Shown here piece after piece: positions 47,817 to 64,000 of a stretch of DNA of 64,000 nucleotides. The stretch is from positions 806,001-870,000 of the forward strand of contig JAUJEB010000004.1 of assembly GCA_030442055.1 (NCBI GenBank), written 5' to 3'. The notes under the pieces are model-generated. The model ran no database searches, was not told the DNA's origin, and saw nothing but the letters and a program-made list of their open reading frames with translations. Made by a program: the position numbers and the translations under genes. Position 1 is the stretch's first letter. The number at the start of each line of letters is the position of its first letter. Source of the DNA: Agaribacillus aureus. Its GTDB lineage: Bacteria; Bacteroidota; Bacteroidia; Cytophagales; Cyclobacteriaceae.

Positions 47817-47839
47817 TCAGATAGCTTTTTCGTTTGTAC

Positions 47840-48631
47840 TCACCGACCTTCAATAAAACCACGATTGTGAATCATTACCGTTGTGCCGGCATCAATGTAT
47901 ATGGTTTGTCCGGTAATTGCCGCGCTAAAATCCGATAGCAAAAAGGCTACCGTATTCCCGCAATCCACCGGAAAAATATTTTTGGGTATAACCTGCTGAT
48001 CATTTATAAAATCGGCCTCCCACTGGTGCGGGTCATCGGCCCAGGTTTTAATTAAGTCATAATTCTGTTCCGCCTTTACCAATCCAGGTCCAATCGCGTT
48101 GCATCTGATATTAAAACGACCTAGTTCATAGGCCATTCCCTTGGTCAGGCCCTGCACCGCTGATTTTGCGCTGCAATACAATGCATATCTCGGTTGGGTG
48201 GCATGGGCGTGGACGGAAGAAACATTTACAATATTGCCCGTCATTTTATTTGCCAGCAACTGGTTCACAAAAAACTTGGAAACCTGCCATACAGCCCGGA
48301 TATCAATGTCATACAAATGATCAAATTCTTCCTCACTTGCCTCGTGGGCAAAACGGCTTAGTCCAACACCGGCATTGTTGACAAGACCATTGACAGGGCC
48401 CACTTTTTCTTTGATTTCCTCAAACATTCGCGCTACCTCCTCCCCTTTGCCAATATCGGCACCAACAGCTATGGCATTCGGGTACTTTTCAGCAGCAGCT
48501 TTTGCTTTATCAACATCCAAATCATTGATAACCATTGTCGCTCCAAAGTTGGCCAACGCCTCGCAAATACCGGCGCCTACCCCTGTTCCGCCACCGCCGG
48601 TAATTAACACATTCAGGTCCTTCAGATCCAT
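47840..48631 (-). CDS. Short-chain dehydrogenase/reductase (SDR)
   Basis: This 263-residue classical SDR has a Gly-rich NAD(P) loop TGGGGTGVGAGI (11-22), NNAG at 85-88 and catalytic S139, Y152 and K156 (YCSAK). The Asp in VINDLD (D37) after the second strand favours NAD over NADP. It is cytoplasmic. It starts an operon with the enolase-superfamily protein, NTF2-RidA and creatininase-family genes, in the pattern of oxidative sugar pathways (sugar to lactone or keto-sugar, then dehydration). It lies 181 bp after the sulfatase gene on the same strand. Confidence 0.92.
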   Translation of the reverse strand: MDLKDLNVLITGGGGTGVGAGICEALANFGATMVINDLDVDKAKAAAEKYPNAIAVGADIGKGEEVARMFEEIKEKVGPVNGLVNNAGVGLSRFAHEASEEEFDHLYDIDIRAVWQVSKFFVNQLLANKMTGNIVNVSSVHAHATQPRYALYCSAKSAVQGLTKGMAYELGRFNIRCNAIGPGLVKAEQNYDLIKTWADDPHQWEADFINDQQVIPKNIFPVDCGNTVAFLLSDFSAAITGQTIYIDAGTTVMIHNRGFIEGR

Positions 48632-48812
48632 ATTCTTAGCTTTTTATTTTATTTCCAGATAAACTACCGGTACAGTACCCACTTTGATCGACAGCACATA
48701 TTTTCATATCATCCAAATTTGTCATAGGTCACAAACTTCTTTTACCACTGTTAGGGTATTCCCTTCCAACCGAACAATACAAGCACTACCTGTATCACGC
48801 AAATTACCAATT

Positions 48813-50360
48813 TTATTGTTCAACCTCCGTATCACCCAAGGCTGCCATTTTGAATGTCTCCGTACCAGGAGCCGTTCTTGCTTTTTTCATAATGGCTGCC
48901 ATTTCTCTGACCACCTCCGGGTGCTGGGCTGCGACATTATCTTGTTCCCTGGGATCCTTTTCCAAATCGTACAGGGCTATATCCATTTCTCCTTCAAATA
49001 AATTCTTTCGGATGGCTTTCCAATTAGCCATTCTCACTGCTTGTTGACCTGTATTGGCTGGAAACTCCCAGTACAAATACTCGTGTTGCCGCTGAGGTTT
49101 TCCAAGCAAAGCCGGAAGAAAACTAATTCCATCGGTATTTTTAGGATCGGGAATGTCAAGTATGTCACAGATGGTAGGTAATACATCATAAAAAGCTGAG
49201 ATATGATGGCTTTCGCTGCCAGGTTTTATTTTATTGGCCCAGCTTGCGATCATGGGAACTCTTATACCTCCTTCGTGCACAAAACCTTTTCCCCATCCGT
49301 ATTCGGATTTAAAGGGTTTGGCACTATCAAAAAACGCGGCATCTACCCCGCCGGTGTACGTCGGCCCGTTATCGCTGGTGAAAATAATCAGTGTATTTTC
49401 ATAAATACCCAGTTCTTTTAATTTTTTCACCACATCCCCGACCTGCTCATCCAGATAGCTAATCATGGCAGCATAGGTAGCTCTGGGTGTTTGGTTTGGA
49501 AAATAACTTCCTTTGGTAAAGGGCTTTTCTTCCCCTAATTTCTTTGTGTAATGGTCTACCCATCGCTTTGGTGCCTGCAACGGCAGGTGCGGAACCGGGG
49601 ATGCGTAGTATAGGAAAAAAGACTGATCGCTGTTTTGTTCCATAAATTTTAAAGCCTCCTCATGCATCAGGTCCGGCGCAAAATCTGTGAGGGAAAAATC
49701 GGCGTAACTTTCGGGGTCATCGGGGTCTGCTCCTTCAGCAAGCTGGCTATGTGGGGCAACCATTTTATTGTTCAGCAAAACCCTTTCATTGTTTTTCCAC
49801 AGATGCATGGGATAATAAGTGTGCGCCTGCCTTTGACAATTGTAGCCATAAAAAAAATCAAACCCCTGTTGATTGGGAACTCCTTCAGTACCCGGCGCTC
49901 CCAGGCCCCACTTTCCCACAACACCCGTTTTATAACCAGCTGATTTCAAAATTTCCGCTATGGTAACAATGCTATCAGGAATTGGTCGCTGGCCTTCCAG
50001 TCCGGGATCATCAAACATAGCCTGGTAATTCCACACATCTCCCCTTGCCCGCCATTCATCGTTACCCCTGACATGGGCATGGCCTGTATGTTGTCCCGTC
50101 ATTAATACACATCGCGCCGGTGCACATACAGGTGCGCCGGTATAGTGTTGGGTAAATTTCATCCCTTCGCTGGCCAAAATATCAATGTTGGGAGTTTCAA
50201 TAATCTGTTGGCCGTAGGCGCCCAATTCTCCATAGCCAAGGTCATCGGCCAGAATATAGATAATGTTGGGCTTTGTTTCAATTTTTTCACCGTCTCCGAC
50301 ACAGGCCTGCATCACGACCAAAATTATTGAACATAAAAAAAAGCCAGACCTCGATATCAT
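48813..50360 (-). CDS. Arylsulfatase-family sulfatase, lipoprotein
   Basis: This 515-residue sulfatase has its lipobox cysteine at C20 (VVMQAC). The metal-binding start is LADDLGYGE (D39, D40). The formylglycine motif CAPAR has C79 as the residue to be modified, so an anaerobic or FGE-type maturase encoded elsewhere is needed. FTSDNGPTYTGG and the C-terminal DLEKDPREQDNVA are typical of the S1 family. It would remove sulfate from a glycan at the periplasmic or outer surface. The SDR operon lies downstream on the same strand. A weak LacI-type motif (50616) lies upstream. The sugar specificity cannot be assigned. Confidence 0.93.
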   Translation of the reverse strand: MISRSGFFLCSIILVVMQACVGDGEKIETKPNIIYILADDLGYGELGAYGQQIIETPNIDILASEGMKFTQHYTGAPVCAPARCVLMTGQHTGHAHVRGNDEWRARGDVWNYQAMFDDPGLEGQRPIPDSIVTIAEILKSAGYKTGVVGKWGLGAPGTEGVPNQQGFDFFYGYNCQRQAHTYYPMHLWKNNERVLLNNKMVAPHSQLAEGADPDDPESYADFSLTDFAPDLMHEEALKFMEQNSDQSFFLYYASPVPHLPLQAPKRWVDHYTKKLGEEKPFTKGSYFPNQTPRATYAAMISYLDEQVGDVVKKLKELGIYENTLIIFTSDNGPTYTGGVDAAFFDSAKPFKSEYGWGKGFVHEGGIRVPMIASWANKIKPGSESHHISAFYDVLPTICDILDIPDPKNTDGISFLPALLGKPQRQHEYLYWEFPANTGQQAVRMANWKAIRKNLFEGEMDIALYDLEKDPREQDNVAAQHPEVVREMAAIMKKARTAPGTETFKMAALGDTEVEQ

Positions 50361-50734: not shown

Positions 50735-52567
50735 TTAGGCATTTGCCGTATTATCGAGGTTGTCGTACCAGTATTTTTTCAGCAGCCAGCTGGTGATCGC
50801 AAAAACCAGGAAACTTACGATCAGGGAGGTTGTCTCACCAATCAGCAGGTAGATAGGCATAATCACCAGGGTCATTTGCCAGACGATGCCGACAATCACA
50901 TTTACCAGATCAGCTTTGAAATTCAGGTTGGGGACAAAATCCGGATCCTCCTGTTTTATGGCCTCTATTACCGGCTTCCAAAATCCCCAGGGTTTGGTCT
51001 GCCGGTAAAAATTCTTTAATATATCCATATTGTCGGGGCGATGGAAATAAGTGCCTGCCAGACAGCCGGCAAACGAGATCAACAATATTAATGGAAATAA
51101 ATATATGGCAGCGATATCGGGGAAAAGGCCTGGCACAATGGTGGAAGCAATCAATCCGCCGAGCATCCCGAAGAAATAGCCATAACCATTAAATCGCCAC
51201 CATATCCACTTCAACACATTGGCCGCAGCATAACCGCCATACAAAGCCGAGGTAATCCACAGGGTCAGTGAATTTATCGAAGCCGCAAAAAAGCCTCCTA
51301 ATACACCTATGAAGACCAACAAAAAAGAGGATAAATAACTATACTTTATGTAGGTCTTGTCACTGCCTTGTGGGTTGATATATTTTTTGTACAAGTCATT
51401 CACAATATAGGCAGGAGCGGCATTGATAAAAGCGGCAAACGTCCCCATAAAAGCAGCCAGTAATCCGGCCAGCAAAAGCCCCTTGAATCCCAGCGGCACA
51501 AACCGCTCAATGGCCAGGGGCAGCACACTCTCAAAATCTATTTCAGAACCCATGGCTTCAAATTCAGGAATGAGGTAGGCCAATGCAAGCACCGCAAATC
51601 CGGCTATCATCAGGTAACGGGGAAAGTATAGTACCAATATTGTCAAACCACTCATTTTAGCTGCCTCTGCCGGCGTTCTGGTGGAAAGTACCCGCTGCAT
51701 ATCATAGCTCGGTACCGGACCCGCAAGGCTGGCAAATATACCTTTAAAGATCATCAGCATGACCAGATACCCTATCAGTTCAAAGCCGTCGCTTTCTATC
51801 TTTTGATTTACACTATCCAGGTAGCCGGTCCAGTCAAGCCCGAGTTCCCAGCCAAAAAACAAATCTTTCCAACCGGGCGGGACAGCAGCTGTAATCTGAT
51901 CGGCCGTTACGGTAGTAAAAGCGATATAACCTATAACCACACAAGATATGGTCATAATTATAAACTGCAGAATTTCGGTAAGCACCACACTATACATACC
52001 CCCTTTAATGGCATATAGTGTTGTAATGGCAATAATAATTCCAGCGTAACTTTGCTCAGAGCTGATAGTCAGTCCGCCCAAGGTAAAGGACAGGTCCCAC
52101 GGAAAGAAGACCGTGGCAAACTTGCCGATGCCGACAAAGAAATAGGCAATGAATCCAAAAACGCTGATAACGGCAAATATCGTGACGATGATGTGGGATA
52201 GCCGTGCGCCCATTTCCTCCCCGAAACGGTGCGTAATCCATTGGGCGCCTGTCATCACGTTGGAGCGCCTTAGCCAAATTGCTAAAAAAACCATGACAAA
52301 CACCTGGTTCCAGACCGGCCACAACCAGGGTATCCAGGCGCTTTTCAGGCCATAAACAAATAAAATTGAGACTGTCCACATAGTACCGGAGATATCAAAC
52401 ATTCCCGATGCATTTGACAGGCCCAGGTAGTACCAGGGGATTTGGTTGCCACCCAGAAAATAACTATTTAAGTTTTTAGACGCTTTTTTAGAAATCCAAA
52501 ATCCGATGAATACGGTAAGTATCAAATAGAACAGAATGATACCCAGATCGACAGGGTGTAGCTTCAT
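50735..52567 (-). CDS. Sodium:solute symporter (SSS family)
   Basis: This 610-residue inner-membrane transporter has multiple hydrophobic helices in the LeuT-like arrangement (first helix VDLGIILFYLILTVFIGFWI). SSS signature stretches such as GIFASLAGPVPSYDMQRVLSTRTP and GLLLAGLLAAFMGTFAAFINAA are present. Members import sugars, sugar acids, amino acids or vitamins with sodium. It is last in the ten-gene operon of exported oxidative enzymes and is therefore the likely importer of their product. In this model that product is a keto-deoxy acid, pyruvate-like fragment or aldonate. The substrate is inferred from context only. Confidence 0.93.
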   Translation of the reverse strand: MKLHPVDLGIILFYLILTVFIGFWISKKASKNLNSYFLGGNQIPWYYLGLSNASGMFDISGTMWTVSILFVYGLKSAWIPWLWPVWNQVFVMVFLAIWLRRSNVMTGAQWITHRFGEEMGARLSHIIVTIFAVISVFGFIAYFFVGIGKFATVFFPWDLSFTLGGLTISSEQSYAGIIIAITTLYAIKGGMYSVVLTEILQFIIMTISCVVIGYIAFTTVTADQITAAVPPGWKDLFFGWELGLDWTGYLDSVNQKIESDGFELIGYLVMLMIFKGIFASLAGPVPSYDMQRVLSTRTPAEAAKMSGLTILVLYFPRYLMIAGFAVLALAYLIPEFEAMGSEIDFESVLPLAIERFVPLGFKGLLLAGLLAAFMGTFAAFINAAPAYIVNDLYKKYINPQGSDKTYIKYSYLSSFLLVFIGVLGGFFAASINSLTLWITSALYGGYAAANVLKWIWWRFNGYGYFFGMLGGLIASTIVPGLFPDIAAIYLFPLILLISFAGCLAGTYFHRPDNMDILKNFYRQTKPWGFWKPVIEAIKQEDPDFVPNLNFKADLVNVIVGIVWQMTLVIMPIYLLIGETTSLIVSFLVFAITSWLLKKYWYDNLDNTANA

Positions 52568-52692
52568 AAAGTGAATTGTATAGTTTGAGACATCAAATAA
52601 ACTTTAGCATAAATGGCTATGCACCGGTTATATTCCATCCCCATATATTATTTTTTGAAAGTGACTTGAATCGGTAAGTGTCAAAGTTATTT

Positions 52693-53388
52693 TCACTCAA
52701 CCAACGCAATGACGCCAAATGCCGACGGCACGTGAAAGTCCGGCCGCTCCGTTTTGGGGTCTACCCAGCTTATCCATCGTAAATCGGCATTTTTTCCGTT
52801 TAGCGCCACACATTCTCCCCGAAACAATCCTGCCAGCAATTTACCTTCTTTCAAAATCTCCAGCTTTTCAAGGGAAGCCAGGCTTATACTTCCTTCAACT
52901 ATGTATCCGGCATCAGTTTTGCTCCCTTTTACCGACAAGCCGTTATCCGGCCATTTCCAACCAAAATTTACCTTGCGGTAAAAATGTGCGTCATAGTCAA
53001 GCACCCTGCTCAACGGATCCATTTCCAGGCAAAAGTATGGCGTCATTTCATCGTCTTTTTTAAAAAAAATCTCCACCCGATCGGAATATACAACCTCTTC
53101 TTTGAGATCCCGATCGCGGTATACCAAAATGTGATCATCTTCTACCTCAAACCTAAACCAGAAATTATGCTCATCCCAAACAGCCTGAAAAGCAGTGGCG
53201 GAGGGTGTCTCCGCTCTCCACGGATAACTAAAATCCGTCAACTTTTGAGCTGCGGACCAGTCGGGTCCCTTGTTAACATCAATGCCTGCTTGTTTTTTAG
53301 CGAAATAAACTTTTTCTTTCTTCACATTAAATGAATTTATTACCAAAAGACCGGCTATTACCAGAGGTGTTATTGCTTTCATAAACAT
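52693..53388 (-). CDS. CBM9-like carbohydrate-binding protein, secreted
   Basis: This 231-residue protein has an N-terminal signal (AITPLVIAGLLVINSF). Its body resembles family 9 carbohydrate-binding modules: WSAAQKLTDFSYPWRAETPSATAFQAVWDEHNFWFRFEVEDD, given here as a span of about residues 44-85, and DRVEIFFKKDDEMTPYFCLE. There is no catalytic motif. It lies between the DUF5009-like gene and the symporter gene in the same operon. It probably binds a sugar or oligosaccharide in the periplasm and may feed the oxidation enzymes or the symporter. Confidence 0.78.
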   Translation of the reverse strand: MFMKAITPLVIAGLLVINSFNVKKEKVYFAKKQAGIDVNKGPDWSAAQKLTDFSYPWRAETPSATAFQAVWDEHNFWFRFEVEDDHILVYRDRDLKEEVVYSDRVEIFFKKDDEMTPYFCLEMDPLSRVLDYDAHFYRKVNFGWKWPDNGLSVKGSKTDAGYIVEGSISLASLEKLEILKEGKLLAGLFRGECVALNGKNADLRWISWVDPKTERPDFHVPSAFGVIALVE

Positions 53389-53499
53389 ACGTTAGAAAAT
53401 TATTATTTAATTATGAAAGTCAGAATCGTTTTTCATTAGCCAAAATTATTACCTGACCCTGAACCGTCCGACACGGGAACGGCAGTTCTGTTTGTGGTT

Positions 53500-54597
53500 T
53501 TATACTTTGATAAAAACCTTGTTTTGATATAGAAAATAACATAAATACCATAAGATGCCTAGCACAAAAACGGCGTTGAATACACCTAACAAAGGTTCTG
53601 ACATTCCTGTGAAACCCAGAAATCCAAAAGTCCAGATTTTACCAAAACCCCGTAACCACTGATGGCCTATTGTTTCTGAAAACACATAAATAAAAATGGA
53701 GTTCATAGACACAATCGTAAAAAAGGGCGTCCATTTTTTGTTTCCCCGGATATCGATTATCCAGTAGAAAAAGGCCATAGCCAAAAGGCACCAGCCTCCC
53801 GAGGCAAAGACGAAGGAAGTGGTAGCAATCCTTTTAACGATGGGCGTAATGCCTGTCAAATCCAGGCCATAGCCAATCGCCAGGCCTCCCAACCCCGCCA
53901 GTATAAAATACCTGACTTTCCTGTTAATGGCCATATCGGAAAGTAAAATTTCACCGCAAATAGCGCCTAAAATCGTATGTGAGGCCGTGGGGATACAATT
54001 AATCGCCACCCATCCACCACCCGGGTTGATCTTTCCCATTAATACCATATCCATCCATGAGCCAAAATTCTGGTCCTTTACAAAAGGCGCTTCGGGGTTG
54101 TAACCCCGATATAATATTTCTGTTAAAATCAAAAACCCAAAAAAGGCAAATATCTGTACTTTCAGAGGATATCGCATCAGTACAAAAGTGACTAATATTG
54201 TAAAGGACAGCTGGGTAAGCACATTCCACAGCTCCCACACCAGTTTTTGATTATAAACGCAATGCAGGCCGGTGCCTAACAAAAACAGTATTCCGCAGCG
54301 GTTGAGGATATGTCTGAAAATAGCCTTCTGAGAATGCCCTTTTTTCAGGCGGGATTTCAGCGAAAATGGCATTACTACCCCTACGATAAACATAAAAAAG
54401 GGCTGGATCAGATCCCAGAATCTAAGGCCGTTCCAGGGGTGATGGTGGAATTGTTGCATGATGAAATGTCCAAAACCCTGCTTGGGCACATAACCATCCA
54501 ATGCCTGATACAGGCTTGCTGCTTCGGCCATTAGCAAAAACATGGTAATGCCCTTATAAACATCCACAAATACCAGGCGATTGTTGTCTTTAATCAT
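53500..54597 (-). CDS. DUF5009/NagX-type membrane protein (acyltransferase-like)
   Basis: This 365-residue integral membrane protein begins RLVFVDVYKGITMFLLMAEA, like the LDVFRGL start of NagX, DUF5009 and heparan-alpha-glucosaminide N-acetyltransferase relatives. QPFFMFIVGVVMPFSL is in the second helix, and about ten helices follow. Related proteins transfer acetyl groups across the membrane to amino sugars or are linked to GlcNAc uptake. It lies in the operon of exported amino-sugar enzymes, which fits either role. The function is inferred from family and neighbours. Confidence 0.75.
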   Translation of the reverse strand: MIKDNNRLVFVDVYKGITMFLLMAEAASLYQALDGYVPKQGFGHFIMQQFHHHPWNGLRFWDLIQPFFMFIVGVVMPFSLKSRLKKGHSQKAIFRHILNRCGILFLLGTGLHCVYNQKLVWELWNVLTQLSFTILVTFVLMRYPLKVQIFAFFGFLILTEILYRGYNPEAPFVKDQNFGSWMDMVLMGKINPGGGWVAINCIPTASHTILGAICGEILLSDMAINRKVRYFILAGLGGLAIGYGLDLTGITPIVKRIATTSFVFASGGWCLLAMAFFYWIIDIRGNKKWTPFFTIVSMNSIFIYVFSETIGHQWLRGFGKIWTFGFLGFTGMSEPLLGVFNAVFVLGILWYLCYFLYQNKVFIKV

Positions 54598-54644
54598 AGT
54601 CAGCTATTGTTGCTCCCATTGCGGGTAAGCACTCATCGAAACCA

Positions 54645-55211
54645 TTAATCTTCAACTTCAACAATCATTTCAATTTCTACCGCAATATTACCCGGCAAGG
54701 CCGCCATGCCGACAGCCGCACGTGCATGTTTTCCGCGCTCCCCGAAAACTTCTACCATCAAATCGGAAAATCCATTAATTACCTTTGGTTGATCGCTAAA
54801 TTCGGGTGTACAATTTACCATGCCCAGCACTTTGACTACCCTTTTCACTTTACTGAGATCGCCTAACTCAGCTTTCAGGGTTGACAGTTGATTGACAGCG
54901 GTAACTTTAGCAGCCTCATAGCCCTGTTCAATGCTTAAATCCGCGCCCACCTTGCCGGTAATGTTTTCACCGTTGGCCTGTAACGGCCCCTTGCCGGACA
55001 AGAAGACCAAATTACCGGTTCGGACAGCATTTACATAATTGGCCACCGGGGTGGAGGGAGGTCGCAAGGTGATGCCAAGCTCCTCAAGTTTCGCTTCGGG
55101 GTTATAGTCCGAGACCTGGGCTTTTACAACCTTTTTCTCACTATCTTCAGTTGTTGCCGGTGAGCATGAAAATGCCAGCAGGATAATAATTCCGTAAATA
55201 ATTTTTCGCAT
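54645..55211 (-). CDS. RidA-family enamine/imine deaminase, lipoprotein
   Basis: This 188-residue lipoprotein has its cysteine at C16 (LLAFSC). A RidA domain fills about 50-185: GNLVFLSGKGPL, VVKVLGMVNCTPEF and ARAAVGMAALPGNIAVEIEMI. The catalytic Arg and the distal EIE are kept. RidA proteins normally work in the cytoplasm, hydrolysing reactive enamines and imines released by PLP enzymes. A membrane-anchored exported form is unusual. It is 25 bp downstream of the SelA-like PLP gene, which is exactly the enzyme type that would release such an intermediate. Confidence 0.9.
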   Translation of the reverse strand: MRKIIYGIIILLAFSCSPATTEDSEKKVVKAQVSDYNPEAKLEELGITLRPPSTPVANYVNAVRTGNLVFLSGKGPLQANGENITGKVGADLSIEQGYEAAKVTAVNQLSTLKAELGDLSKVKRVVKVLGMVNCTPEFSDQPKVINGFSDLMVEVFGERGKHARAAVGMAALPGNIAVEIEMIVEVED

Positions 55212-55236
55212 TACATTAAATAATTGATAGACTTTA

Positions 55237-56445
55237 TTAAGATTTCTTGCTTAGTATTTTTTGAATGGAGCTAGCTACTATTCTTTCCTCACCCGGGTTC
55301 ATCATCCAGGTGGTAATATCTATGGACTCATCTCCACCCACGGTCTCTATGGAAGGGTGGCCATTTCTCAACGCCTGCCTTGCTTCGTTAGGTGTCATTT
55401 TTACCTTCTTATTGTCCCAACGGATACGAAGCGAAGGCACGTGATTGGCGATATCGGGCACGTGTATTTCCGTTTCAACACCGTCTACAGTTGCGGCTGC
55501 ATCGGCAATGAGTTTGATCTGACTTTCCCACAGCTTCCAGTCGCTTTCGTGGTCGCGGGTCAAATAGTTCTCTACAGCCATCAGCATGGCTAGAATTTCT
55601 TCCTTGTTAACCTTCATACCTCTGCCAACGGTATCCCCACGGGGAGGGGCGCTTAATCTTGCAGCGGCGATCAAATCTTTCCTGCCAAGCAATAAACCGC
55701 AACTTTGAGGGCCGCGCAATCCTTTACCCCCGGAAAAACAAGCCAGGTCGAAACCCATATCCGTATATTTCCAAAGGTTTTCTACCGGCGGCACATCGGC
55801 AGCGGCATCAATCATCATCGGTATGTTATATTTTTTGCCTACTTCTACAAATTCTTTGTACTGTATTTTTCCTTTAAAATTATTGGCATTCAGAAACCAG
55901 AGCATGGCTGTCTGATCATTAATGGCTTTTTCCAGCTCTTTCCTGGTTTCAATTTCTATCACCTTTACGCCACAATTTTTTATCGCATGTGCATATCCTA
56001 TTACGTGCGACTTTTGCATGATCACCTCTGTTTTCATCCCGGAAAGATCGGTGGGAATACGGGATGCTTTTTCGGAGTCCATTCCCGATAGAACGCCTGC
56101 GGTTCCAAGCGTTATGGCAGAAGCGGCTCCTGCTGTAACGGTAGCGGCCTCGCAGCCGATCAGTTCGGCCAAACGCGCTCCTACCTTGTCTTGTAACTCG
56201 TCCAGCGCTACATATTGCCTTGTGGCGTAATTGTAAGCGTCTATGGCACTCTCTCTCATCAAGCAACCTGTTAGGGAAGTGTACGTGCCGGCTGCGTTGA
56301 TAAATGTGCGTAAACCTAATTCCTTATAATAATCACGCCTGGTAACCGGACCCGGCCAAACGGCGGCGGTTACTTCGGTGGTGGCAAATAATCCCCCTAT
56401 GAGTGGTAAGGCCGACATTTGTTTTAATAATTGCCTTCTTTTCAT
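55237..56445 (-). CDS. Exported SelA-like PLP enzyme (aminoacid/aminoaldonate lyase candidate)
   Basis: This 402-residue protein has a twin-arginine-like signal (MKRRQLLKQMSALPLIGGLF). Fold-type I PLP features are present: VTAGAASAITLG at 103-114, MIDAAAD with D213, and FSGGKGLRGPQ with Schiff-base Lys K241. The block order and SGGKGLRGPQ match the SelA-like branch that includes DgaE, the D-glucosaminate-6-phosphate ammonia-lyase. These proteins often stand beside a deacetylase-type amidohydrolase, as here. Export of a PLP enzyme is rare. The likely role is removing ammonia from a 2-amino-aldonate, with an enamine intermediate for the flanking RidA proteins. The substrate is inferred. Confidence 0.83.
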   Translation of the reverse strand: MKRRQLLKQMSALPLIGGLFATTEVTAAVWPGPVTRRDYYKELGLRTFINAAGTYTSLTGCLMRESAIDAYNYATRQYVALDELQDKVGARLAELIGCEAATVTAGAASAITLGTAGVLSGMDSEKASRIPTDLSGMKTEVIMQKSHVIGYAHAIKNCGVKVIEIETRKELEKAINDQTAMLWFLNANNFKGKIQYKEFVEVGKKYNIPMMIDAAADVPPVENLWKYTDMGFDLACFSGGKGLRGPQSCGLLLGRKDLIAAARLSAPPRGDTVGRGMKVNKEEILAMLMAVENYLTRDHESDWKLWESQIKLIADAAATVDGVETEIHVPDIANHVPSLRIRWDNKKVKMTPNEARQALRNGHPSIETVGGDESIDITTWMMNPGEERIVASSIQKILSKKS

Positions 56446-56515
56446 GATTTTATTAATTAAAGTTTTCTACAATAAAAGATAGTTTCGGCAGTGGCCCTGA
56501 TGACCGTGACCCTAC

Positions 56516-57001
56516 CTATAAGGCTGCGATGCAATCCATCTCGACCAATGAATCACCGGGTACGCCACCATAAGTAGCCACGGTAGTACGCACCGGCGGG
56601 TTCGGGCCAAAGCGACCACGAAAGACTTCGTTCATGCCATGGTAATCTGCCAGGTCGTGAAGATATACGTTCACCTTCAGCACTTTTTCCATGGAAGAGC
56701 CATTTTTGACCAACTCTTTTTCCAGCTCTTTCAGCACGTGATCTGTATGTGACTTGATGTCGCCTTCAAAGTGCGCGCCTTTGCCCGCGATGTAGAGCGT
56801 ATTTCCGTGCTTAACGGCGCCGGAAAATAGTGGTATCTTCTGGTCATCGGTGACAATTTCTCCCACCACTTTTTTTTCCGGGTATTCGGGGTCACCGTGA
56901 TCGGCGGCTTTTACCACCCCAACGCCCAAAGCAGCCAACACCGTGGCGCCAACTTTTTTAAAGATTGATCTTCGCGAACTTAATTTTTCCATAATTAACA
57001 A
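56516..57001 (-). CDS. RidA-family deaminase with twin-arginine signal
   Basis: This 161-residue protein starts MLIMEKLSSRRSIFKKVG, with the twin arginines followed by a hydrophobic stretch (VLAALGVGVVKA). It is probably exported by the Tat system. The RidA domain covers about 50-161 (GNTLYIAGKGAHFEG, VLKVNVYLHDLADYHGMNEVF, NPPVRTTVA). The catalytic Arg and a late acidic residue (VEMD) are kept. It is 70 bp upstream of the SelA-like gene. Together with the lipoprotein RidA at 54645 it flanks the PLP enzyme on both sides. Confidence 0.88.
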   Translation of the reverse strand: MLIMEKLSSRRSIFKKVGATVLAALGVGVVKAADHGDPEYPEKKVVGEIVTDDQKIPLFSGAVKHGNTLYIAGKGAHFEGDIKSHTDHVLKELEKELVKNGSSMEKVLKVNVYLHDLADYHGMNEVFRGRFGPNPPVRTTVATYGGVPGDSLVEMDCIAAL

Positions 57002-57042
57002 TATTTTGATTAATGAATAACTTCATAAAAGTGTTACAAATA

Positions 57043-57972
57043 CTACCAGGTTCTCTTTTTTAGTAACTCCTGGATCTGAGCCTTGGGTACCGGCAAATCA
57101 TCTATATGATCTTTCAGCCACTTGGAAAAGTCTTTCTCAATTTCAGCTGACCATTTACTATCGATCTGACCCGGCGTATATTTACCTTCCTTTAACCTGG
57201 TGATCCCAAACAAATCCCGGAGTCTTATCACTTCGGAGGTAACCACCACCTTTTCTGCCAGATGTGCTGGAATGAATACAACACCTTCCCTTTTTGCCAC
57301 CACAATATCGCCTGGCAACACCGTGGCGGCGCCCATTCTGATCGGCACGTTGAGTCCTGAAAGCATTACCTCCTGCAAAAACGAAGGATGCCAACCTTTT
57401 ACGAAAGCATTGAAGCCCTCGATCTCGGCCAATCCCTCCAAATCTCTGCTCGAAGCATTAAAAACAACTCCATTACCCGATTTGGCAAAAATGGAATTTC
57501 CCAGGTTATCGCCAATAAGTGTACCGTCTACAATTTTCCCAAATCCATCGGCCACGTAAACATCTCCCTTGGAAAGCATATCAATGGGCCAGGAATTAGT
57601 ATTTCCTATGCGTCCTTCTTTTTCACCTCTTTGCTTAATTTGATCAGCCACGTCGGGCCTGTTAGGCATGTATTGGGCGGTCAAGGCGCGGCCAACCACG
57701 GCAACCTCCTCATGGATCGGTTGCCAATTGCCTTCGAACTGGTTATGAAAACCTTCATTTCGCAAAACACCCCATACCTCTTCGATGGTTACATGATGCA
57801 TTCTTTCCACGATATCATCAGGCACCTTCGGCCGTCCATCGGGGAAGCGTTCACCTTCCCATTTGGCGGTGAGAAATATCATCTCCTCCCGGGATATGGT
57901 TTGAGCGAGAACGGTAGCGCCTGCCATTAAAAAAATTATTAAAATAAGTGCGGTACGTTGTGCTTTCATCAT
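57043..57972 (-). CDS. Exported RraA-like class II aldolase/decarboxylase
   Basis: This 309-residue protein has a signal peptide (cleavage likely after ATVLAQ). The RraA-like domain at about 85-240 has the aldolase motif D-X20-R-D exactly: D155 in IGDN, then R176-D177 in ASSRD. This motif marks family members that act as HMG/CHA aldolase or oxaloacetate decarboxylase and is lost in the RNase E regulator. The protein is longer than typical members, with N- and C-terminal extensions. In this operon it would be the natural enzyme to cleave a 2-keto-3-deoxy acid. The substrate is inferred. Confidence 0.86.
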   Translation of the reverse strand: MMKAQRTALILIIFLMAGATVLAQTISREEMIFLTAKWEGERFPDGRPKVPDDIVERMHHVTIEEVWGVLRNEGFHNQFEGNWQPIHEEVAVVGRALTAQYMPNRPDVADQIKQRGEKEGRIGNTNSWPIDMLSKGDVYVADGFGKIVDGTLIGDNLGNSIFAKSGNGVVFNASSRDLEGLAEIEGFNAFVKGWHPSFLQEVMLSGLNVPIRMGAATVLPGDIVVAKREGVVFIPAHLAEKVVVTSEVIRLRDLFGITRLKEGKYTPGQIDSKWSAEIEKDFSKWLKDHIDDLPVPKAQIQELLKKRTW

Positions 57973-58024
57973 TTGGTAAGTTATGAATAATAAATGTTTT
58001 TTTTAATTGGTTAATCAGACCTGG

Positions 58025-59266
58025 CTATTCGTCCCAGGCCAGACTGGAAATCCCGTTCAGGTCCCAAACAACTTTGCCTGCCTTGATAGTTAATTCACAG
58101 ACCAGCTTTTTATCTCCATCCATGCGAAACCCTTTGGTATCCACAAAACCAAATTTTCCTTTTTCCAATTTCAAAACGGCCACGTCGGCTATACCTTCGG
58201 GGCTCAGGTGTCCTAATTCCGGTCTATTTATGACTTTAGCAGGATTAAAAGTGGTTTGGGCCACTACCTCCTGAACTGTCAGGCCCATGTTTAAAAATTT
58301 GGACATTACATTGGTGATATCTTTCATGCCTGCATTCATGCTGCCTGTGTGCAGGTCCGTGCTGATGGTGTTTGGTTTTAGCCCTTGTTCGATGGCCGGC
58401 ACAGCCTGTTTAAATAAAAAACTTCCGCCACCATGCCCTACATCAAAGATGATTCCTCGTTGTTGTGCTTTGAGTGCAAAGGGTTCCAGCTTGCCATTTT
58501 CATCCACTACGGGCATCCGGCCGTTAACGTGGGCGTAGGCGTGGGTGAAAATATCTCCAGGGCGCAGCTTTTCCATAAATAAAGTTTCAAGTGACAGGGG
58601 AGGTTGATGGCCGCCGAAATCAACCATTACAGGAATATTCGCCAATTCTCCAGCCTTCACAGCCTGCTCGACCGGCGTCCATTCGCCGCCCTGATAATGC
58701 GCTACCTTAACTCCTACAATATACTGTGGAAAGGATTTGGCTTCCATGGCGGTTAGTCTACCGTCCATATCCGGCAGGTTTTGTTCGGTAGCTCCACCTT
58801 TCATCCCGGCACCAACGATATTTATAAAGCACAATACCCGCGTTTTAGAATTATCAATCACTTGTTGCTTAAAGGTTTTAAAATTCCGCCACCCCGCTCC
58901 TCCGGCATCTACAATGGTGGTCACGCCTGAACGGAAACTGAATCCATCCGGTGGCAAAGCCGAGAAGCTGTTGCTAAGGTAGCCGTATGCTTTCGTACCA
59001 AAAAAGTTATGAGCATGGAGGTCAATCAATCCGGGCACTACGTAGGATCCTTTAACATGGATGACCTTTTCCACATTGGCTACCGGAATATTGGGGGCCA
59101 CCGCTACTATTTTTCCTTCGGTCAAAGCTACATCCATGATGCCATCGATATTGTTTTTAGGATCAATGACATGCCCTCCCTTCAACAGGATCTCTACCGG
59201 CGGTTGCGCCATCGCGCCAAGGAAAGAGCAGCCAATGAATAAGATTAATAGGGTAAGCTTTTTCAT
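58025..59266 (-). CDS. Exported amidohydrolase/deacetylase-family metalloenzyme
   Basis: This 413-residue protein has a signal peptide (cleavage near GAMAQ). The amidohydrolase metal site is visible: DLHAH (H84, H86), VGVKVAH (K187, possibly carbamylated), FGGH (H220), THAY (H242) and STDLHTG (D304). It resembles the deacetylase-like branch that travels with SelA-like PLP enzymes in Firmicutes and enterics. In this operon it would remove the N-acetyl group from an N-acetyl-aminoaldonate, giving the substrate of the PLP enzyme encoded at 55237. That reaction is inferred from neighbours. Confidence 0.86.
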   Translation of the reverse strand: MKKLTLLILFIGCSFLGAMAQPPVEILLKGGHVIDPKNNIDGIMDVALTEGKIVAVAPNIPVANVEKVIHVKGSYVVPGLIDLHAHNFFGTKAYGYLSNSFSALPPDGFSFRSGVTTIVDAGGAGWRNFKTFKQQVIDNSKTRVLCFINIVGAGMKGGATEQNLPDMDGRLTAMEAKSFPQYIVGVKVAHYQGGEWTPVEQAVKAGELANIPVMVDFGGHQPPLSLETLFMEKLRPGDIFTHAYAHVNGRMPVVDENGKLEPFALKAQQRGIIFDVGHGGGSFLFKQAVPAIEQGLKPNTISTDLHTGSMNAGMKDITNVMSKFLNMGLTVQEVVAQTTFNPAKVINRPELGHLSPEGIADVAVLKLEKGKFGFVDTKGFRMDGDKKLVCELTIKAGKVVWDLNGISSLAWDE

Positions 59267-59322
59267 GCTGTGTTATTAATATTTAAAACATAGAATCTCG
59301 TTTTATAAGTCACCGGCAATTT

Positions 59323-60249
59323 TTATTGCCGCATCGCCCATTCCCTGCCGGGGTGCTCTGCCCGAAATGATTCGAGGCTGCCCCTGTCCTGCAAAGTGAC
59401 GTAACAGGTTTTACCATCATCACCCCCAAAGGTAATATTGGAAGGTTTTTTACCTGTCAGCTGAATTTCCTGCAACAGTTTCCCGTCCGGCGAGACCATG
59501 GCGACTGTTCCCTTACCATGGCGGGTAATATAAATGTTCCCTTCCACGTCACAGCGCATGCCGTCCATACCAAAATCCTCGAAACGGATCAAAAGCCTTT
59601 TACCTGATATTTCCCCGGAAGGCGACAAGTCATAAGCCCATACATTGCGCTGAACGCTTTCATTGACATACAATGTTTTTTCATCCGGACTTAATTCAAG
59701 GCCATTGGTAGTACCCATATCCGCCTCCAGCAAAACGAGTGACCGGTCATTATCTACACGCCAGAGGTTACCGGTACCTTCCTGCCAGTTGGGATCGCTG
59801 GCGTAAAGCGTTCCGTTGCTGCTGATCGCTAAATCGTTGGGTTGATTCATACTGTCTCCGTGGACATAGACATCAATTGATTTAGATATGACATCAATTT
59901 TCAAGACATTATGACCTGTATAATCGGCTACAAACATGTTGCCTTTATTATCCAACCGGATCCCATTTCCGATACTTCCCTCCGGCAGGTCCGCAAAGAG
60001 ACTGCTTTTACCCTCCTGGTTTACAATACCTATAGTTCCCTGCTTCTGAAAGTTAACAACATAAATGTTGCCATCCGAATCAGTTGCAGGCCCTTCAATG
60101 CCGGAGGTGAATTCTTCCGGTATTGTAAAATCACTGCTCTTGTATACTGCTTCTCCTTCCTCATTATTTACCTTGCCCGATTGACAGCCCCATAACAAAA
60201 ACAGTAGTAATAATCTAATAAAGTCCCTCTTAACCATATTGAAATCCAA
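59323..60249 (-). CDS. SMP-30/gluconolactonase-type lactonase, lipoprotein
   Basis: This 308-residue lipoprotein has its cysteine at C22 (LWGC). It is a six-bladed beta-propeller of the SMP-30/LRE family. The metal ligands are visible at the expected places: E52 (GIEGPA), N182 (TTNGLELS) and D229 (GMDGMRCD). It would open a sugar lactone to the aldonate. It lies directly downstream of the sugar dehydrogenase gene, 45 bp apart, which would produce such a lactone. Membrane anchoring on the outside of the cytoplasm matches that partner. Confidence 0.9.
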   Translation of the reverse strand: MDFNMVKRDFIRLLLLFLLWGCQSGKVNNEEGEAVYKSSDFTIPEEFTSGIEGPATDSDGNIYVVNFQKQGTIGIVNQEGKSSLFADLPEGSIGNGIRLDNKGNMFVADYTGHNVLKIDVISKSIDVYVHGDSMNQPNDLAISSNGTLYASDPNWQEGTGNLWRVDNDRSLVLLEADMGTTNGLELSPDEKTLYVNESVQRNVWAYDLSPSGEISGKRLLIRFEDFGMDGMRCDVEGNIYITRHGKGTVAMVSPDGKLLQEIQLTGKKPSNITFGGDDGKTCYVTLQDRGSLESFRAEHPGREWAMRQ

Positions 60250-60294
60250 TGCCCTGAATGTTTAGATTGAAAAATAATTTAGCATATTTTAAGT

Positions 60295-62052
60295 CTATTG
60301 TGTAGAAGTCCTTACCTGCTTCACTTCTTCTTCCGAAACAGCACTTGCTTCATTCCCAAAATTTTGTCTTATATAAGTTAAAATACTTGCCACTTCATCA
60401 TCCGGAAGAAAGCTATGTTGCGGCATGACGCTGTTGTATGGTTTCCCGTTTACCTCGATCCCACCTTCCAAACCATTCAGTACTACCTTGATCAATCTTT
60501 CTTTATCTCCGGTAACCCAATCCGTGTCCCGGAGGGGTGGATATCTGCCCGACGCACCTTTGCCATTTCTTTGATGACAGATGCCGCAGTATTGAAAATA
60601 CAATGCTTCTCCCGTATTTGCCAGTATTTTCAGCAAGTTATCTTGTTGTTCGTCCGGGGTTTTTATGTTTGGTTGCTGTTTTCGTTTTTCCATGGCGGCC
60701 AGTTGTTTTTCGCCAAAAGTATCCTTGTCCCCTCTAAAAGTCACCTTCCATACTTTTCCCTTTTCCGTCTCGCTAAGATACAATGAACCGTCAGGTCCCA
60801 TGGCCAAGCCCATGGGCCGGTATACCGCATCGCTTACATTAACAATTGTATCTACTTGTGCAAATCCATCGGCAAACACTTCCCACTCACCGGTTGGCGC
60901 CCCGTCTTTAAAGGGTATGAAGGCTACAAAATAGCCCGATTGTGGATAGGGCGCCCGGATGGTAGAGCCATGGAAAGCCACAAATGCTCCGTTTTTATAT
61001 CGCGCCGGAAACTGGTCTCCGGTATAAAACAATAAGCCATTAGGTGCCCAGTGGCCTGGAAAACCCATGATGGGCAGGTCATAGTCACTGCACCTTCCGA
61101 TCGAGTCGCCATCACCACCATACTCCGGTGCCAGTACTTTCTTTTCCTGCAATTGATCGTAATAACAGTAAGGCCATCCAAAATCAGTTCCCTCAGTGAC
61201 TTTCAGAAACTCCTCCGAGGGAAGCATGGCGCTCTCCCAGGCAGTGTACAGGTTGGGGAATAACCTTAAAAGATCGTCGCGGCCGTGCATCACAAGGTAC
61301 AGGTTATCATCCTGGTCATTCCAGTCCATACAAATCATACTTCTGATCCCCGAAGCAAAACGCGTCCCATCCTTCTGTGTTTGCCCGGTCTTATTGGCAT
61401 CAAAACGCCATACGCCGGCATGATGCTCCAGCTGCGGACAAGGATCCAGGCCAGGTTGTCCAGGGGTTCTTTTGGGTTCCTGACAGGCATTTGACGGTGC
61501 GCCAAACGGCACATAAAGGTTGCCTTCCTTGTCAAAAGCTATTGGCTTGCCATTGTGCTCATGATCGCCATGTTCGTGGTCATCCAGTACAATTAACTCC
61601 AGCTCACTGTCAGGGACTAATTTTTCAGGATTTAAGCGGTACCGGTACACTGCTAATTCGGTACTAAAGTATAAGTAGCCATTGTAAACCTCTACCGCCG
61701 TTTGAAACCCCCAATTGCCTTTATGCTCATATACACCAAATCTTTTAACAATATCAGCCCTTCCGTCGCCATCGGTATCTCTGAGCGCTGCAATACCGCC
61801 ATCTTCAAAAGAATATCTTAGCTTGACATAAACATCACCATTTTCATTGACGGTTATTTCCCTCGCCTTTCCTTGGAGGCTGTCCACTACCACCACGGCC
61901 TCAAAATCCTCGGGAATGAAAAGACCGCCTGTCGAGTAGCTTGGTGTCGCCTGGCTACACCCCATCAAAAAAAAACAATTAGAGAGAATAATCAGCGGGA
62001 AAATCCCGGAGAAGGCACGGTCTTTTTTTTGAGGCTTATGGTTAGTCTTCAT
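60295..62052 (-). CDS. Glucose/sorbosone dehydrogenase-like propeller fused to cytochrome c, lipoprotein
   Basis: This 585-residue lipoprotein has its cysteine at C32 (LMGC). An N-terminal beta-propeller (about 45-440) resembles soluble aldose and L-sorbosone dehydrogenases (DGDGRADIVKRFG, TEGTDFGWPYCYYD, YRPMGLAMGPDGSLYLSE). A C-terminal cytochrome c follows: heme motif CGICH at 489-493 with an axial Met candidate M543 in NSVMPQHSF. It would oxidise an aldose at C1 and pass electrons to the respiratory chain. It is first in the ten-gene operon, behind the TGTTCACGAACA motif. PQQ use is likely from family but not shown. Confidence 0.88.
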   Translation of the reverse strand: MKTNHKPQKKDRAFSGIFPLIILSNCFFLMGCSQATPSYSTGGLFIPEDFEAVVVVDSLQGKAREITVNENGDVYVKLRYSFEDGGIAALRDTDGDGRADIVKRFGVYEHKGNWGFQTAVEVYNGYLYFSTELAVYRYRLNPEKLVPDSELELIVLDDHEHGDHEHNGKPIAFDKEGNLYVPFGAPSNACQEPKRTPGQPGLDPCPQLEHHAGVWRFDANKTGQTQKDGTRFASGIRSMICMDWNDQDDNLYLVMHGRDDLLRLFPNLYTAWESAMLPSEEFLKVTEGTDFGWPYCYYDQLQEKKVLAPEYGGDGDSIGRCSDYDLPIMGFPGHWAPNGLLFYTGDQFPARYKNGAFVAFHGSTIRAPYPQSGYFVAFIPFKDGAPTGEWEVFADGFAQVDTIVNVSDAVYRPMGLAMGPDGSLYLSETEKGKVWKVTFRGDKDTFGEKQLAAMEKRKQQPNIKTPDEQQDNLLKILANTGEALYFQYCGICHQRNGKGASGRYPPLRDTDWVTGDKERLIKVVLNGLEGGIEVNGKPYNSVMPQHSFLPDDEVASILTYIRQNFGNEASAVSEEEVKQVRTSTQ

Positions 62053-62503: not shown

Positions 62504-63370
62504 TCAATAGATACATTTTGTATTGTCAGACTTCAGGTAATAGCTTTTATAATTTTTAGCTTTTTCATCGGTACACCCGCATAGGTCCAGTACCTCTATT
62601 TTTTTGAAATCTATTGGATGTGTTTCTGCCTGAATGGCAATATATCCCATGCCTAACGGCCCGGTCAGGCTTGCTTTTTCAGGGATCAATCCCGAAACAT
62701 TGCCGCCATCTACCAAAGGTTTGGTATAGGTTAATACTGGTGTACCGCCAACTATGTGCTGTAGTATTGAATCACCAAGTACCAATGCCTCTACCTCCAC
62801 CCACTGATCTCCGTGGAAGGTTTCAGAAGTTGAACTAATGCAGTGAGGTGTAAAAAGGGTATCGGCAAAGTGCACATTAGTACCCGGAGTGCATAAGTTG
62901 GCCGTAGGCCGCGAACCTTCACCGCCTCCACCCAGAAGTTGCATTTCCAGTGATATGGGAAAATCCTGGTTCAATCCCATGCTTTCCGGAGATTGGGAGT
63001 GAAGCATGAAACCATTGTTTCGAAAAGCCCATCCGGGACCTCCCTTGACCTGGTCTTCAACAAAGCGGTAGGTGGCTTTGAGGCGATAATGTGAAAACTC
63101 CTGGTTGTAAAACAAGTGGCCAAACTCTCTGTTGACAAAGCTGTCATATTCATGATAACGAACTTTCAGTAAACTATCCTCTACCTTAAAAGTATTTTTA
63201 TAATTCATGCCAAGTTCATATCCATTAAACTTGACCGACCAATTATCAATATCCTGACCATTAAACAGTTGGATCCATTCCTCCTGATCCGGATCGTTGT
63301 TTTGCGACGTGGAACAATTAAAAAGTAATGCGCTGCTTACAAAAAGTATTAATACCTGAAGTTTATACAT
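62504..63370 (-). CDS. DUF1080 (3-keto-disaccharide hydrolase-like) lipoprotein
   Basis: This 288-residue lipoprotein has its cysteine at C19 (LLFNC). The body is a concanavalin-like fold of the DUF1080 family: LFNGQDIDNWSVKFNGYEL, FGHLFYNQEFSHYRLKATYRF, NNGFMLHSQ and VEVEALVLGDS. Some members cleave 3-keto-glycosides made by Gfo/Idh/MocA dehydrogenases; others only bind sugar. It is 9 bp downstream of a sulfatase gene, so the pair is co-transcribed. The reaction here is not known. Confidence 0.85.
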   Translation of the reverse strand: MYKLQVLILFVSSALLFNCSTSQNNDPDQEEWIQLFNGQDIDNWSVKFNGYELGMNYKNTFKVEDSLLKVRYHEYDSFVNREFGHLFYNQEFSHYRLKATYRFVEDQVKGGPGWAFRNNGFMLHSQSPESMGLNQDFPISLEMQLLGGGGEGSRPTANLCTPGTNVHFADTLFTPHCISSTSETFHGDQWVEVEALVLGDSILQHIVGGTPVLTYTKPLVDGGNVSGLIPEKASLTGPLGMGYIAIQAETHPIDFKKIEVLDLCGCTDEKAKNYKSYYLKSDNTKCIY

Positions 63371-63379
63371 ATTATTTTT

Positions 63380-64000
63380 TTAGTTTAATAGCTGTTGCGG
63401 ATATGGCACCGGTGTGCCGGTTGATTTCAGCGATGGCATCTGGGCATTGCATTCCTGCAGGTAGGCAGTTAATACTGCTGCCAGCTCAGTGGCTTTGCCG
63501 GGATTTTCTTCCGCTAAATTGACAGATTCTCCAATATCATTTTTCAAATTAAAAAGCTCAACCCGTTGATCCATATGATAGTATATATATTTCCAATCAC
63601 CTAATCGAACTGCGCTAAAAGCGCCAATTCCAGGCCCTGTAGGGCCCCATTGATTGGGATAATGCCAAAACAATGGCCGTTGTGCTGTCTGCCCGGATTC
63701 ATTATTTTTCAAAAGATAAACAAAACTTTCGCCATCTACCTGCTGTACAGGCTGGTAATTTTCGACGCCCGCCATCTCCAGAATGGTGGGGTAAAAATCT
63801 TCAATAATCAGATAATTATCATTTACCGTCTGAGGTTGAACTACGCCCGGCCATTTTACGATCATAGGTTCGCGTATCCCGCCTTCATGGATCGAGCCTT
63901 TGCCACTGGATAAGGGTTTGTTGTGTGTATGTTTCTCCCCTCCCCTGGCCACGGCGCTTAGTCCGCCGTTATCGGACATAAACATAATAATAGTATTATC
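63380..64000 (-). CDS. Sulfatase, C-terminal part, cut by window edge
   Basis: The frame is open to the right window edge. The visible part contains NTIIMFMSDNGG, KGSIHEGGIREPMIVKWPG, and the C-terminal GDWKYIYYHMDQRVELFNLKND, all typical of S1-family sulfatases. The catalytic CxPxR region lies beyond the window. It is followed by the DUF1080 gene in the same operon. With the sulfatase at 48813 it gives the locus at least two sulfatases, which supports a sulfated glycan substrate. Confidence 0.92.
   Translation of the reverse strand, partial: DNTIIMFMSDNGGLSAVARGGEKHTHNKPLSSGKGSIHEGGIREPMIVKWPGVVQPQTVNDNYLIIEDFYPTILEMAGVENYQPVQQVDGESFVYLLKNNESGQTAQRPLFWHYPNQWGPTGPGIGAFSAVRLGDWKYIYYHMDQRVELFNLKNDIGESVNLAEENPGKATELAAVLTAYLQECNAQMPSLKSTGTPVPYPQQLLN

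Follow-up and report, generated by a model that had tools for sequence, protein, structure and literature searches.

A ten-gene operon for predicted envelope enzymes

The window analyzed here, a stretch of 64,000 nucleotides of Agaribacillus aureus DNA (G000:C31:806001-870000) from a genome of 9.39 Mb that is 99.56% complete, carries at positions 50735-62052 of its minus strand an operon of ten genes with intergenic gaps of 25-125 bp (Table 1). Its products include a pyridoxal phosphate (PLP) enzyme of the SelA/DgaE type, a dehydrogenase-cytochrome, an SMP-30/gluconolactonase-like lipoprotein, an amidohydrolase, and two RidA proteins (RidA 1 and RidA 2), and we cautiously favor the view that together they constitute an envelope-located oxidative pathway for N-acetylhexosamines. 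A first-pass annotation of the stretch had proposed this one-directional arrangement, the families of the ten genes, and Sec, Tat (twin-arginine translocation), or lipoprotein signals on the proteins from the dehydrogenase to RidA 2. The arrangement was recovered as described, the families were assigned by Pfam and NCBIfam profile scans, and the signals were recognized by eye in the N-termini.

The dehydrogenase models as an AA12/PQQ (pyrroloquinoline quinone)-type beta-propeller fused to a cytochrome c domain; its AlphaFold model (pLDDT 74.6) best matches the AA12 structure 6i1t (TMt 0.74) and then PQQ aldose dehydrogenases (3das, 2g8s). A CxxCH motif and Met543 are found in 45/45 homologues, and so is Arg237, with His166 in 44/45, the latter two being at most candidate ligands of PQQ or calcium. 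The SMP-30 protein retains Glu52 and Asp229 in 19/19 homologues. The amidohydrolase scores 432 bits with NF006689, over the cutoff of 371, a model that we take to be of the COG3964 type; the metal-site residues His84, His86, His242, and Asp304 are invariant in 78 homologues, Lys187 is kept in 76 of these 78, and among solved structures the protein comes closest to 2ogj and 8je0. Arg138 (60/60) and Glu154 (59/60) of RidA 1 and Arg164 and Glu179 (both 21/21) of RidA 2 presumably serve the function of the conserved Arg and Glu of RidA proteins. In RraA, Arg176-Asp177 is present in 27/28 homologues; of the chains with known structure, 5x15, a putative transferase, and 3noj, an aldolase/oxaloacetate decarboxylase, are the closest to it. 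The NagX-like protein covers nearly the whole length of the NF046061 model, at 104.2 bits far below the cutoff of 480, and the Pfam scan returned no match for it. The true starts of RidA 1 and the SMP-30 protein probably lie a few codons inside the listed TTG, Met standing at residues 4 and 5.

Table 1. Operon genes and codons of interest in the window, with proposed roles.
Feature	Position	Strand	Evidence and proposed role
Dehydrogenase	60295..62052	-	Lipoprotein-like N-terminus; Pfam GSDH and Cytochrom_C; proposed aldose C1 oxidation
SMP-30/gluconolactonase-like lipoprotein	59323..60249	-	PF08450 (SMP-30/SGL), 151.6 bits; proposed lactonase
Amidohydrolase/deacetylase	58025..59266	-	Sec-like signal; NF006689; proposed N-deacetylation of aldonate
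RraA-like protein	57043..57972	-	Sec-like signal; PF03737; possible aldolase, outside the conserved core
RidA 1	56516..57001	-	RR signal; PF01042; proposed enamine/imine hydrolase
PLP enzyme, exported SelA/DgaE-like	55237..56445	-	TIGR01437, NF047797; proposed ammonia-lyase on free hexosaminate
Lys241 codon, PLP Schiff-base lysine	55723..55725	-	Alignment to DGL
Asn188-Asn189 codons, at DGL His162-His163 positions	55879..55884	-	Alignment to DGL
Ser338 codon, at position of DGL phosphate-side Arg301	55432..55434	-	Alignment to DGL
RidA 2, lipoprotein-like	54645..55211	-	PF14588 (YjgF_endoribonc), PF01042
NagX-like membrane protein	53500..54597	-	NF046061; possible transmembrane acetylation of free hexosamine
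CBM9-like protein	52693..53388	-	PF06452, 72.7 bits
Sodium:solute symporter	50735..52567	-	PF00474, 78.4 bits; proposed product importer

A conserved core of amidohydrolase, RidA 1, and PLP enzyme

Fifty-nine related genomes, own included, were compared at E <1e-100 for the PLP enzyme and for the dehydrogenase (both domains in one frame), E up to 1e-20 for the amidohydrolase, and E <1e-50 for RidA 1. The PLP enzyme was found in 14/59 genomes at this threshold and in 22/59 at E up to 0.001, the weaker matches including a 32% identical homologue without the N-terminal extension in genome G011. Present in the same 14 genomes, the amidohydrolase was not found in any of the remaining 45. Exported-type RidA 1 had exactly the same distribution, its next matches (1e-14) looking like general RidA proteins, and the dehydrogenase occurred in 12 of the 14 versus 1 of the 45. 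Fisher's test gave p = 7.5e-14 for both the amidohydrolase and RidA 1, a value that is optimistic because the genomes are kin. Within 5 kb of the PLP gene lay the amidohydrolase in all 14 genomes and RidA 1 and the dehydrogenase in 10 each.

A scan of named genomes supplied a second sample of 316 stretches encoding a relative of the PLP enzyme, the best 80 of which, mostly titled as Bacteroidota, were taken as loci; selected by similarity to the PLP enzyme and in many cases lying on short contigs, these loci are a biased sample, and their counts are lower bounds. Clustering placed the amidohydrolase in 68 of the 80, RidA 1 in 60, the dehydrogenase in 42, RraA in 28, an SBF-family transporter in 26, RidA 2 in 21, the SMP-30 protein in 19, and SusD-like and SusC-like proteins in 17 and 16, respectively, the names of otherwise unlabelled clusters being based on 1-3 scanned members each. 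Same-strand runs around the PLP gene, available for 78 loci, included the amidohydrolase in 64, RidA 1 in 48, the dehydrogenase in 31, RraA in 26, RidA 2 in 19, the SBF transporter in 18, and the SMP-30 protein in 6. The TIGR01437 model matched 198 of 296 genomes of the phylum at E up to 0.001 and seven, own included, at <1e-30; the weaker matches were taken as related PLP enzymes.

The conserved core is thus amidohydrolase-RidA 1-PLP enzyme, often with the dehydrogenase, and to judge from gene content and position, its association is strong. The gene order expected in the first-pass annotation to be conserved in Bacteroidota holds for this core; RraA, the NagX-like protein, the CBM9-like protein, and the symporter are variable. 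RraA was rejected as a core member, since it lies near the PLP gene in 2/14 genomes. In the nearest relative (L039, PLP enzyme 83% identical), neither an RraA nor a NagX-like gene was seen in the operon. At 11966-13088 of the same locus, a remnant of 124 amino acids was all that was found of the symporter, and the NagX-like gene was missing, through either deletion or an assembly fault. A Thalassovita record (L067) carries a SusCD-RidA 1-PLP-amidohydrolase-RraA cluster that groups with Bacteroidota in the tree, perhaps because the contig was mis-binned.

Proposed pathway, its product, and its substrate

From the operon, the signal-like N-termini, the families, the conserved residues, and the co-occurrence, all seen in the sequence, we infer the whole of the following chemistry. 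The lipoprotein dehydrogenase of the PQQ-type/cytochrome c kind would oxidize C1 of the N-acetylhexosamine and deliver the electrons to the respiratory chain; the SMP-30 protein would open the lactone to N-acetylhexosaminate; the exported amidohydrolase would take off acetate; the RR-bearing (twin-arginine) DgaE-like PLP enzyme would act on free hexosaminate, eliminating its C3 hydroxyl and releasing an enamine; and the co-exported RidA proteins would hydrolyze the enamine/imine to 2-keto-3-deoxyhexonate and ammonia. This keto acid would be imported, by the sodium:solute symporter here and by PanS/BASS-like or galactonate-type major facilitator superfamily (MFS) transporters elsewhere, and then be phosphorylated and split inside by 2-keto-3-deoxygalactonate kinase (DGOK) and a KDPG-type aldolase; where RraA is present, it may be split outside into pyruvate and glyceraldehyde. 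The sequence of reactions first annotated, from oxidation through lactone, aldonate, deacetylation, and PLP-dependent elimination to imine hydrolysis, survives as the simplest reading. The aldol cleavage that was placed after it, outside the cytoplasm, is the weakest step of the pathway and appears doubtful, RraA lying near the PLP gene in the 2/14 genomes and 28/80 wider loci given above.

Catabolism could also be completed outside the cell, with periplasmic RraA splitting the keto acid so that pyruvate and glyceraldehyde alone are taken up, a reading that we consider unlikely. It would account for the signal-like N-terminus of RraA (26/26 homologues), for the retention of its Arg-Asp pair, and for the SBF transporter, which lies <200 bp from RraA on the same strand in 16/18 loci having both and is PanS/BASS-like in the two members scanned, whose PanS scores of 251 and 242 bits fall short of the cutoff. 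RraA is, however, within 10 kb of the PLP gene in just those two of the 14 genomes even when all 49 RraA matches are taken in, it is missing from the operon of the nearest relative, and its homologues, found in 14/14 genomes with the PLP enzyme, are also found in 6/45 without it. A route through DGOK and an aldolase, encoded in one lineage, also speaks against complete outside catabolism.

Import of the intact 2-keto-3-deoxyhexonate, the product that we regard as the better supported, is favored because DGOK and a KDPG-type aldolase share an operon with the exported pair. In three Chitinophagaceae loci (L097, L110, and L113), the exported PLP enzyme and amidohydrolase are followed by DGOK (173-175 bits, cutoff 25) and KDPG aldolase, and L097 and L110 add an MFS transporter of the galactonate type, which scores 249-250 bits against a cutoff of 395. 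The product is perhaps of the galacto series, and N-acetylgalactosamine is more hinted at than N-acetylglucosamine (GlcNAc) as the substrate; nothing in these data pointed to N-acetylmannosamine. DGOK occurs in 9/14 genomes with the PLP enzyme versus 3/45 others; KDPG aldolase is itself common (39/59 genomes). Two points count against this product: the three loci are near-copies that form one lineage in the tree, and the DGOK gene of the own genome is on another contig, together with KDPG aldolase and a dihydroxy-acid/L-arabinonate dehydratase-like gene. Because of this neighborhood, DGOK co-occurrence may reflect other sugar-acid metabolism, and its value as proof of the product is weakened.

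An amino-sugar aldonate is probably the substrate of the core enzymes, as far as gene content can indicate. Differing oxidizing modules accompany the same PLP/Rid set. A plasmid of the acidobacterium Granulicella encodes RraA, the PLP enzyme, RidA, a second PLP enzyme, an amidohydrolase, and a lactonase, each with an N-terminus that by eye resembles a signal, alongside a BBE-domain protein without one. A plasmid of the haloarchaeon Halosolutus encodes a PIG-L deacetylase, the PLP enzyme, Rid, a glucose 1-dehydrogenase, and a lactonase, with no signals by eye. In L062, a GMC oxidoreductase and gluconate dehydrogenase subunit 3 are encoded downstream.

This recurrence of an oxidoreductase and a lactonase beside PLP/Rid genes in an acidobacterium and a haloarchaeon, and the six-carbon keto acid to which one lineage points by encoding DGOK and KDPG aldolase, argue against the exported trio degrading N-acetylated beta-hydroxy-D-amino acids, with the dehydrogenase and lactonase serving a separate function and merely clustered with it. 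We judge that explanation improbable. In its favor, OngC, an analogous deaminase, also accepts D-serine and D-threonine, and the closest relatives of OngB are D-aminoacylases (PMC9537276). It would also explain two observations that weigh against an amino-sugar pathway, namely, that the dehydrogenase is absent as a single gene in 2/14 genomes with the PLP enzyme and that the SMP-30 protein is in just 6/78 operon runs. A further point against an amino-sugar pathway is that the sulfatases and the NagX-like gene point to amino sugars only weakly.

Active-site changes in the PLP enzyme

The PLP enzyme scores 188 bits with TIGR01437, under the cutoff, and 161.3 bits with NF047797, whose cutoff is 600. 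Its modeled fold matches Cap15 (8t7j, TMt 0.87) and DGL (7lc0, TMt 0.85, listed top) at E 1.4e-28 each; the SelA/DGL folds that it matches are, we assume, of fold type I. Cap15 is an oxygen-dependent PLP enzyme that carries out oxidative decarboxylation to a carboxamide, and the equal fit is a point against the proposed pathway, as the enzyme could be Cap15-like and no ammonia-lyase at all. This seems very improbable: in sequence, the protein is nearer DGL (123.6 versus 101.4 bits for Cap15) and the DgaE families, and the co-exported RidA and the DGOK of one lineage suit a keto acid, not a carboxamide.

Residues were counted in 94 homologues aligned to DGL, paralogues and near-copies included. 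The equivalents of Lys241 and of DGL Asp189 are Lys and Asp, respectively, in 94/94. In DGL, His163 is the C3 proton donor, His162 lies near O6, Arg226 lies near the carboxylate, and the phosphate has Arg301, Arg332, and Arg346 close by, as judged from a manually docked model (PMC9529869); the PLP lysine printed there as Lys-217 is 213 in the chain numbering used for the alignment. At the His163 position, none of the 94 homologues has His (Asn 41, Ala 22, Thr 11, Glu 9, and others), the His162 position is His in 8/94, and at the Arg301 position Arg is found in 0/94 (Lys 1, gap 1). The H163A variant of DGL is fully active and builds up a transient 293 nm intermediate; its authors suggest that the enamine leaves the enzyme and is protonated in solution (PMC9529869).

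Since the His that protonates C3 in DGL is missing, the PLP enzyme of the operon would release an enamine, and the changes at the His162/163 and Arg301 positions would suit a substrate without phosphate and delivery of the enamine to RidA. We read this as loss of the phosphate-side and proton-donor residues, with the enamine product passed on to RidA, which is likely to be the partner of the PLP enzyme, judging from residues and gene association. Several details sit less well with this interpretation. At the carboxylate-side Arg226 position, the 94 homologues divide into 41 with Arg, 51 with Lys, one with Gln, and one with a gap, and the His112 position is Ser in 4/94. His163 and Arg301 are retained in four cytoplasmic rhizobial/burkholderial homologues and in none of three haloarchaeal ones, and two annotated rhizobial neighborhoods have ABC transporters and no phosphotransferase system. 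His162/163 and Arg301 were therefore rejected as clean markers of a phosphorylated substrate, as rhizobial homologues keep both beside ABC transporters. DGL-like in its predicted action, the protein nevertheless fails three DGL features (His162/163, Arg301, and the curated cutoff) and is not classed here as a DGL.

Rhizobial ABC-transporter operons with a cytoplasmic PLP enzyme and Rid, His162/163 and Arg301 being retained, are found at L150 and L155, the latter also with an amidohydrolase. A second, longer PLP paralogue (~535-549 amino acids) is encoded near the first in L091 (14096-15724), L099 (13920-15554), L110 (8869-10476), and L114 (12948-14597), and L091, L099, and L114 also have at least two amidohydrolase genes. 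The second PLP enzyme of Granulicella (L149, 8701-10299) is of similar length. Perhaps this second paralogue serves a second sugar epimer.

Predicted export of the operon enzymes

By eye, the N-termini are lipobox-like in the dehydrogenase, the SMP-30 protein, and RidA 2, Sec-like in the amidohydrolase and RraA, and of the RR type in RidA 1 and the PLP enzyme. Homologues of at least 40% identity were classified by a simple rule, rows below that identity and partial rows being dropped beforehand (three for the amidohydrolase, one each for RraA and RidA 1, and two for the dehydrogenase). The PLP enzyme came out as Tat-like in 81/92, Sec-like in 1, and without a signal in 10, nine of which have RR; RidA 1 was Tat-like in 56/60. 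The amidohydrolase was Sec- or lipoprotein-like in 74/77 and Tat-like in 3/77, and the remaining proteins were Sec- or lipoprotein-like in 26/26 (RraA), 42/43 (dehydrogenase), 19/20 (SMP-30 protein), and 17/21 (RidA 2). Among 692 other genes used as a control, 26 were Tat-like and 332 Sec- or lipoprotein-like, and a presumably cytoplasmic enolase-superfamily protein also scored as Sec-like, so only the Tat class of the rule discriminates.

RR precedes the PLP core in 93/94 homologues versus 70/692 other genes (first 48 residues). In eight PLP relatives that lack a signal-like extension, the core is preceded by 1-22 residues with no RR. In a tree of 105 rows, built by a quick method and with long branches flagged, the nine rows that lack a signal, with DGL among them, are set apart by a single branch (SH-aLRT 93). 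TatC is encoded in the own genome and in 57/59 genomes overall. Two results run the other way, the one PLP homologue of 94 without RR, on a KSB1 contig, and the Pfam TAT signal model, which matched 0/16 PLP sequences at E up to 5. That the enzymes are cytoplasmic and their N-terminal extensions are no signals, as this missing Pfam match and the Sec-like score of the enolase-superfamily protein might suggest, is barely credible in view of the RR count, the extension-less relatives without RR, the presence of TatC, and the Sec- or lipoprotein-like N-termini of nearly all amidohydrolase, RraA, dehydrogenase, and SMP-30 homologues and most of those of RidA 2. An exported location of the operon enzymes is, on these sequence features, very probable.

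Neighboring genes and a second dehydrogenase

Separated from the operon by a 374 bp gap, positions 44986-50360 of the same strand hold genes for a sulfatase, an SDR protein, an enolase-superfamily protein, a RidA fusion whose N-terminal half had no Pfam match, and a creatininase. The set is kept in the closest relative (L039, 13094-18393) and resembles a second operon, for sugar acids or amines. Upstream of the dehydrogenase, positions 62504-64000 encode a sulfatase-like protein and one that, from its sequence, we take to be of the DUF1080 type, with counterparts at 2620-5060 of L039. DUF1080 members are proposed to be 3'-ketolactose hydrolases (PMC9007349).

On contig C1 of the own genome (L159, 9354-14379), a second dehydrogenase-cytochrome, 62% identical to that of the operon, is divergent from a gene pair that resembles a molybdopterin aldehyde oxidoreductase and, by eye, carries an RR signal. 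A molybdopterin aldehyde oxidoreductase-like gene also lies near the PLP gene in L078.

Implications and comparison with known systems

In the sea and in soils, the amino sugars of chitin, glycosaminoglycans, and bacterial walls make up a large pool of nitrogen, and the well-known routes for their use begin with import and phosphorylation. If the proposed pathway is true, ammonia and acetate would be freed outside the inner membrane, electrons would enter the respiratory chain directly, and a periplasmic role would fall to Rid proteins and a PLP lyase. It would also give testable functions to proteins so far annotated by broad family alone, the PLP relatives being encoded in the 316 stretches scanned. 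Whether this amounts to a widespread PLP-dependent deamination of free amino-sugar acids in the envelope, in which a lyase without the protonating His needs a co-exported RidA and N-acetylhexosamines are oxidized, deacetylated, and stripped of ammonia before uptake, is a more tentative proposal, one that we put forward as possible. Overall, the first-pass interpretation is partly supported.

That interpretation had held a phosphate-free, exported version of SelA-like ammonia-lyase chemistry to be new. Its phosphate-free part is already known from the cytoplasmic ong pathway of Pseudoalteromonas prydzensis, an oxidative route of chitin utilization in which the GlcNAc aldonate arising from cleavage by lytic polysaccharide monooxygenase is deacetylated and deaminated by cytoplasmic OngB and OngC to 2-keto-3-deoxygluconate (PMC9537276). 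The exported part stands so far: among the matches listed in the open-licence literature, neither an exported DgaE-type nor a galactosaminate pathway was found, and a listed paper on a marine flavobacterium deals with a polysaccharide lyase and not this pathway (PMC5613140).

Other systems share single features with the operon. For the chitin-growing haloarchaeon Natrarchaeobius, a GlcNAc pathway with a deacetylase, a glucose dehydrogenase, and a DGA homologue has been predicted (PMC12343721), and the Halosolutus plasmid carries a similar gene set; that pathway, a prediction only, assumes a kinase step, and in the text drawn on no export is proposed (PMC12343721). NagX is a proposed transmembrane glucosamine N-acetyltransferase whose product is imported and phosphorylated (PMC9007349), and it is to this model that the protein at 53500-54597 has its nearly full-length match far under the cutoff. 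With DGL, the PLP enzyme has in common the fold, the family, the PLP lysine, and the carboxylate-side Arg226 (Arg255 here), and it differs in its signal-like extension, in the absence of His162, His163, and Arg301, and in falling below the NCBIfam cutoffs.

The closest parallel is the ong cluster, which, like this operon, includes RidA and a sodium:solute symporter gene. As far as the published descriptions drawn on here go, OngC is a PLP enzyme of fold type III, whereas that of the operon is SelA/DgaE-type and predicted to be exported; OngB belongs to amidohydrolase subtype V (Cys/His/His; PMC12017989), whereas the operon encodes a putatively exported amidohydrolase of the NF006689 type with an HxH/Lys/His/Asp site; and a dehydrogenase lies inside the operon, so that oxidation would be built in. 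The logic of the pathway is thus already known from ong; its enzymes, their location, and the built-in oxidation differ.

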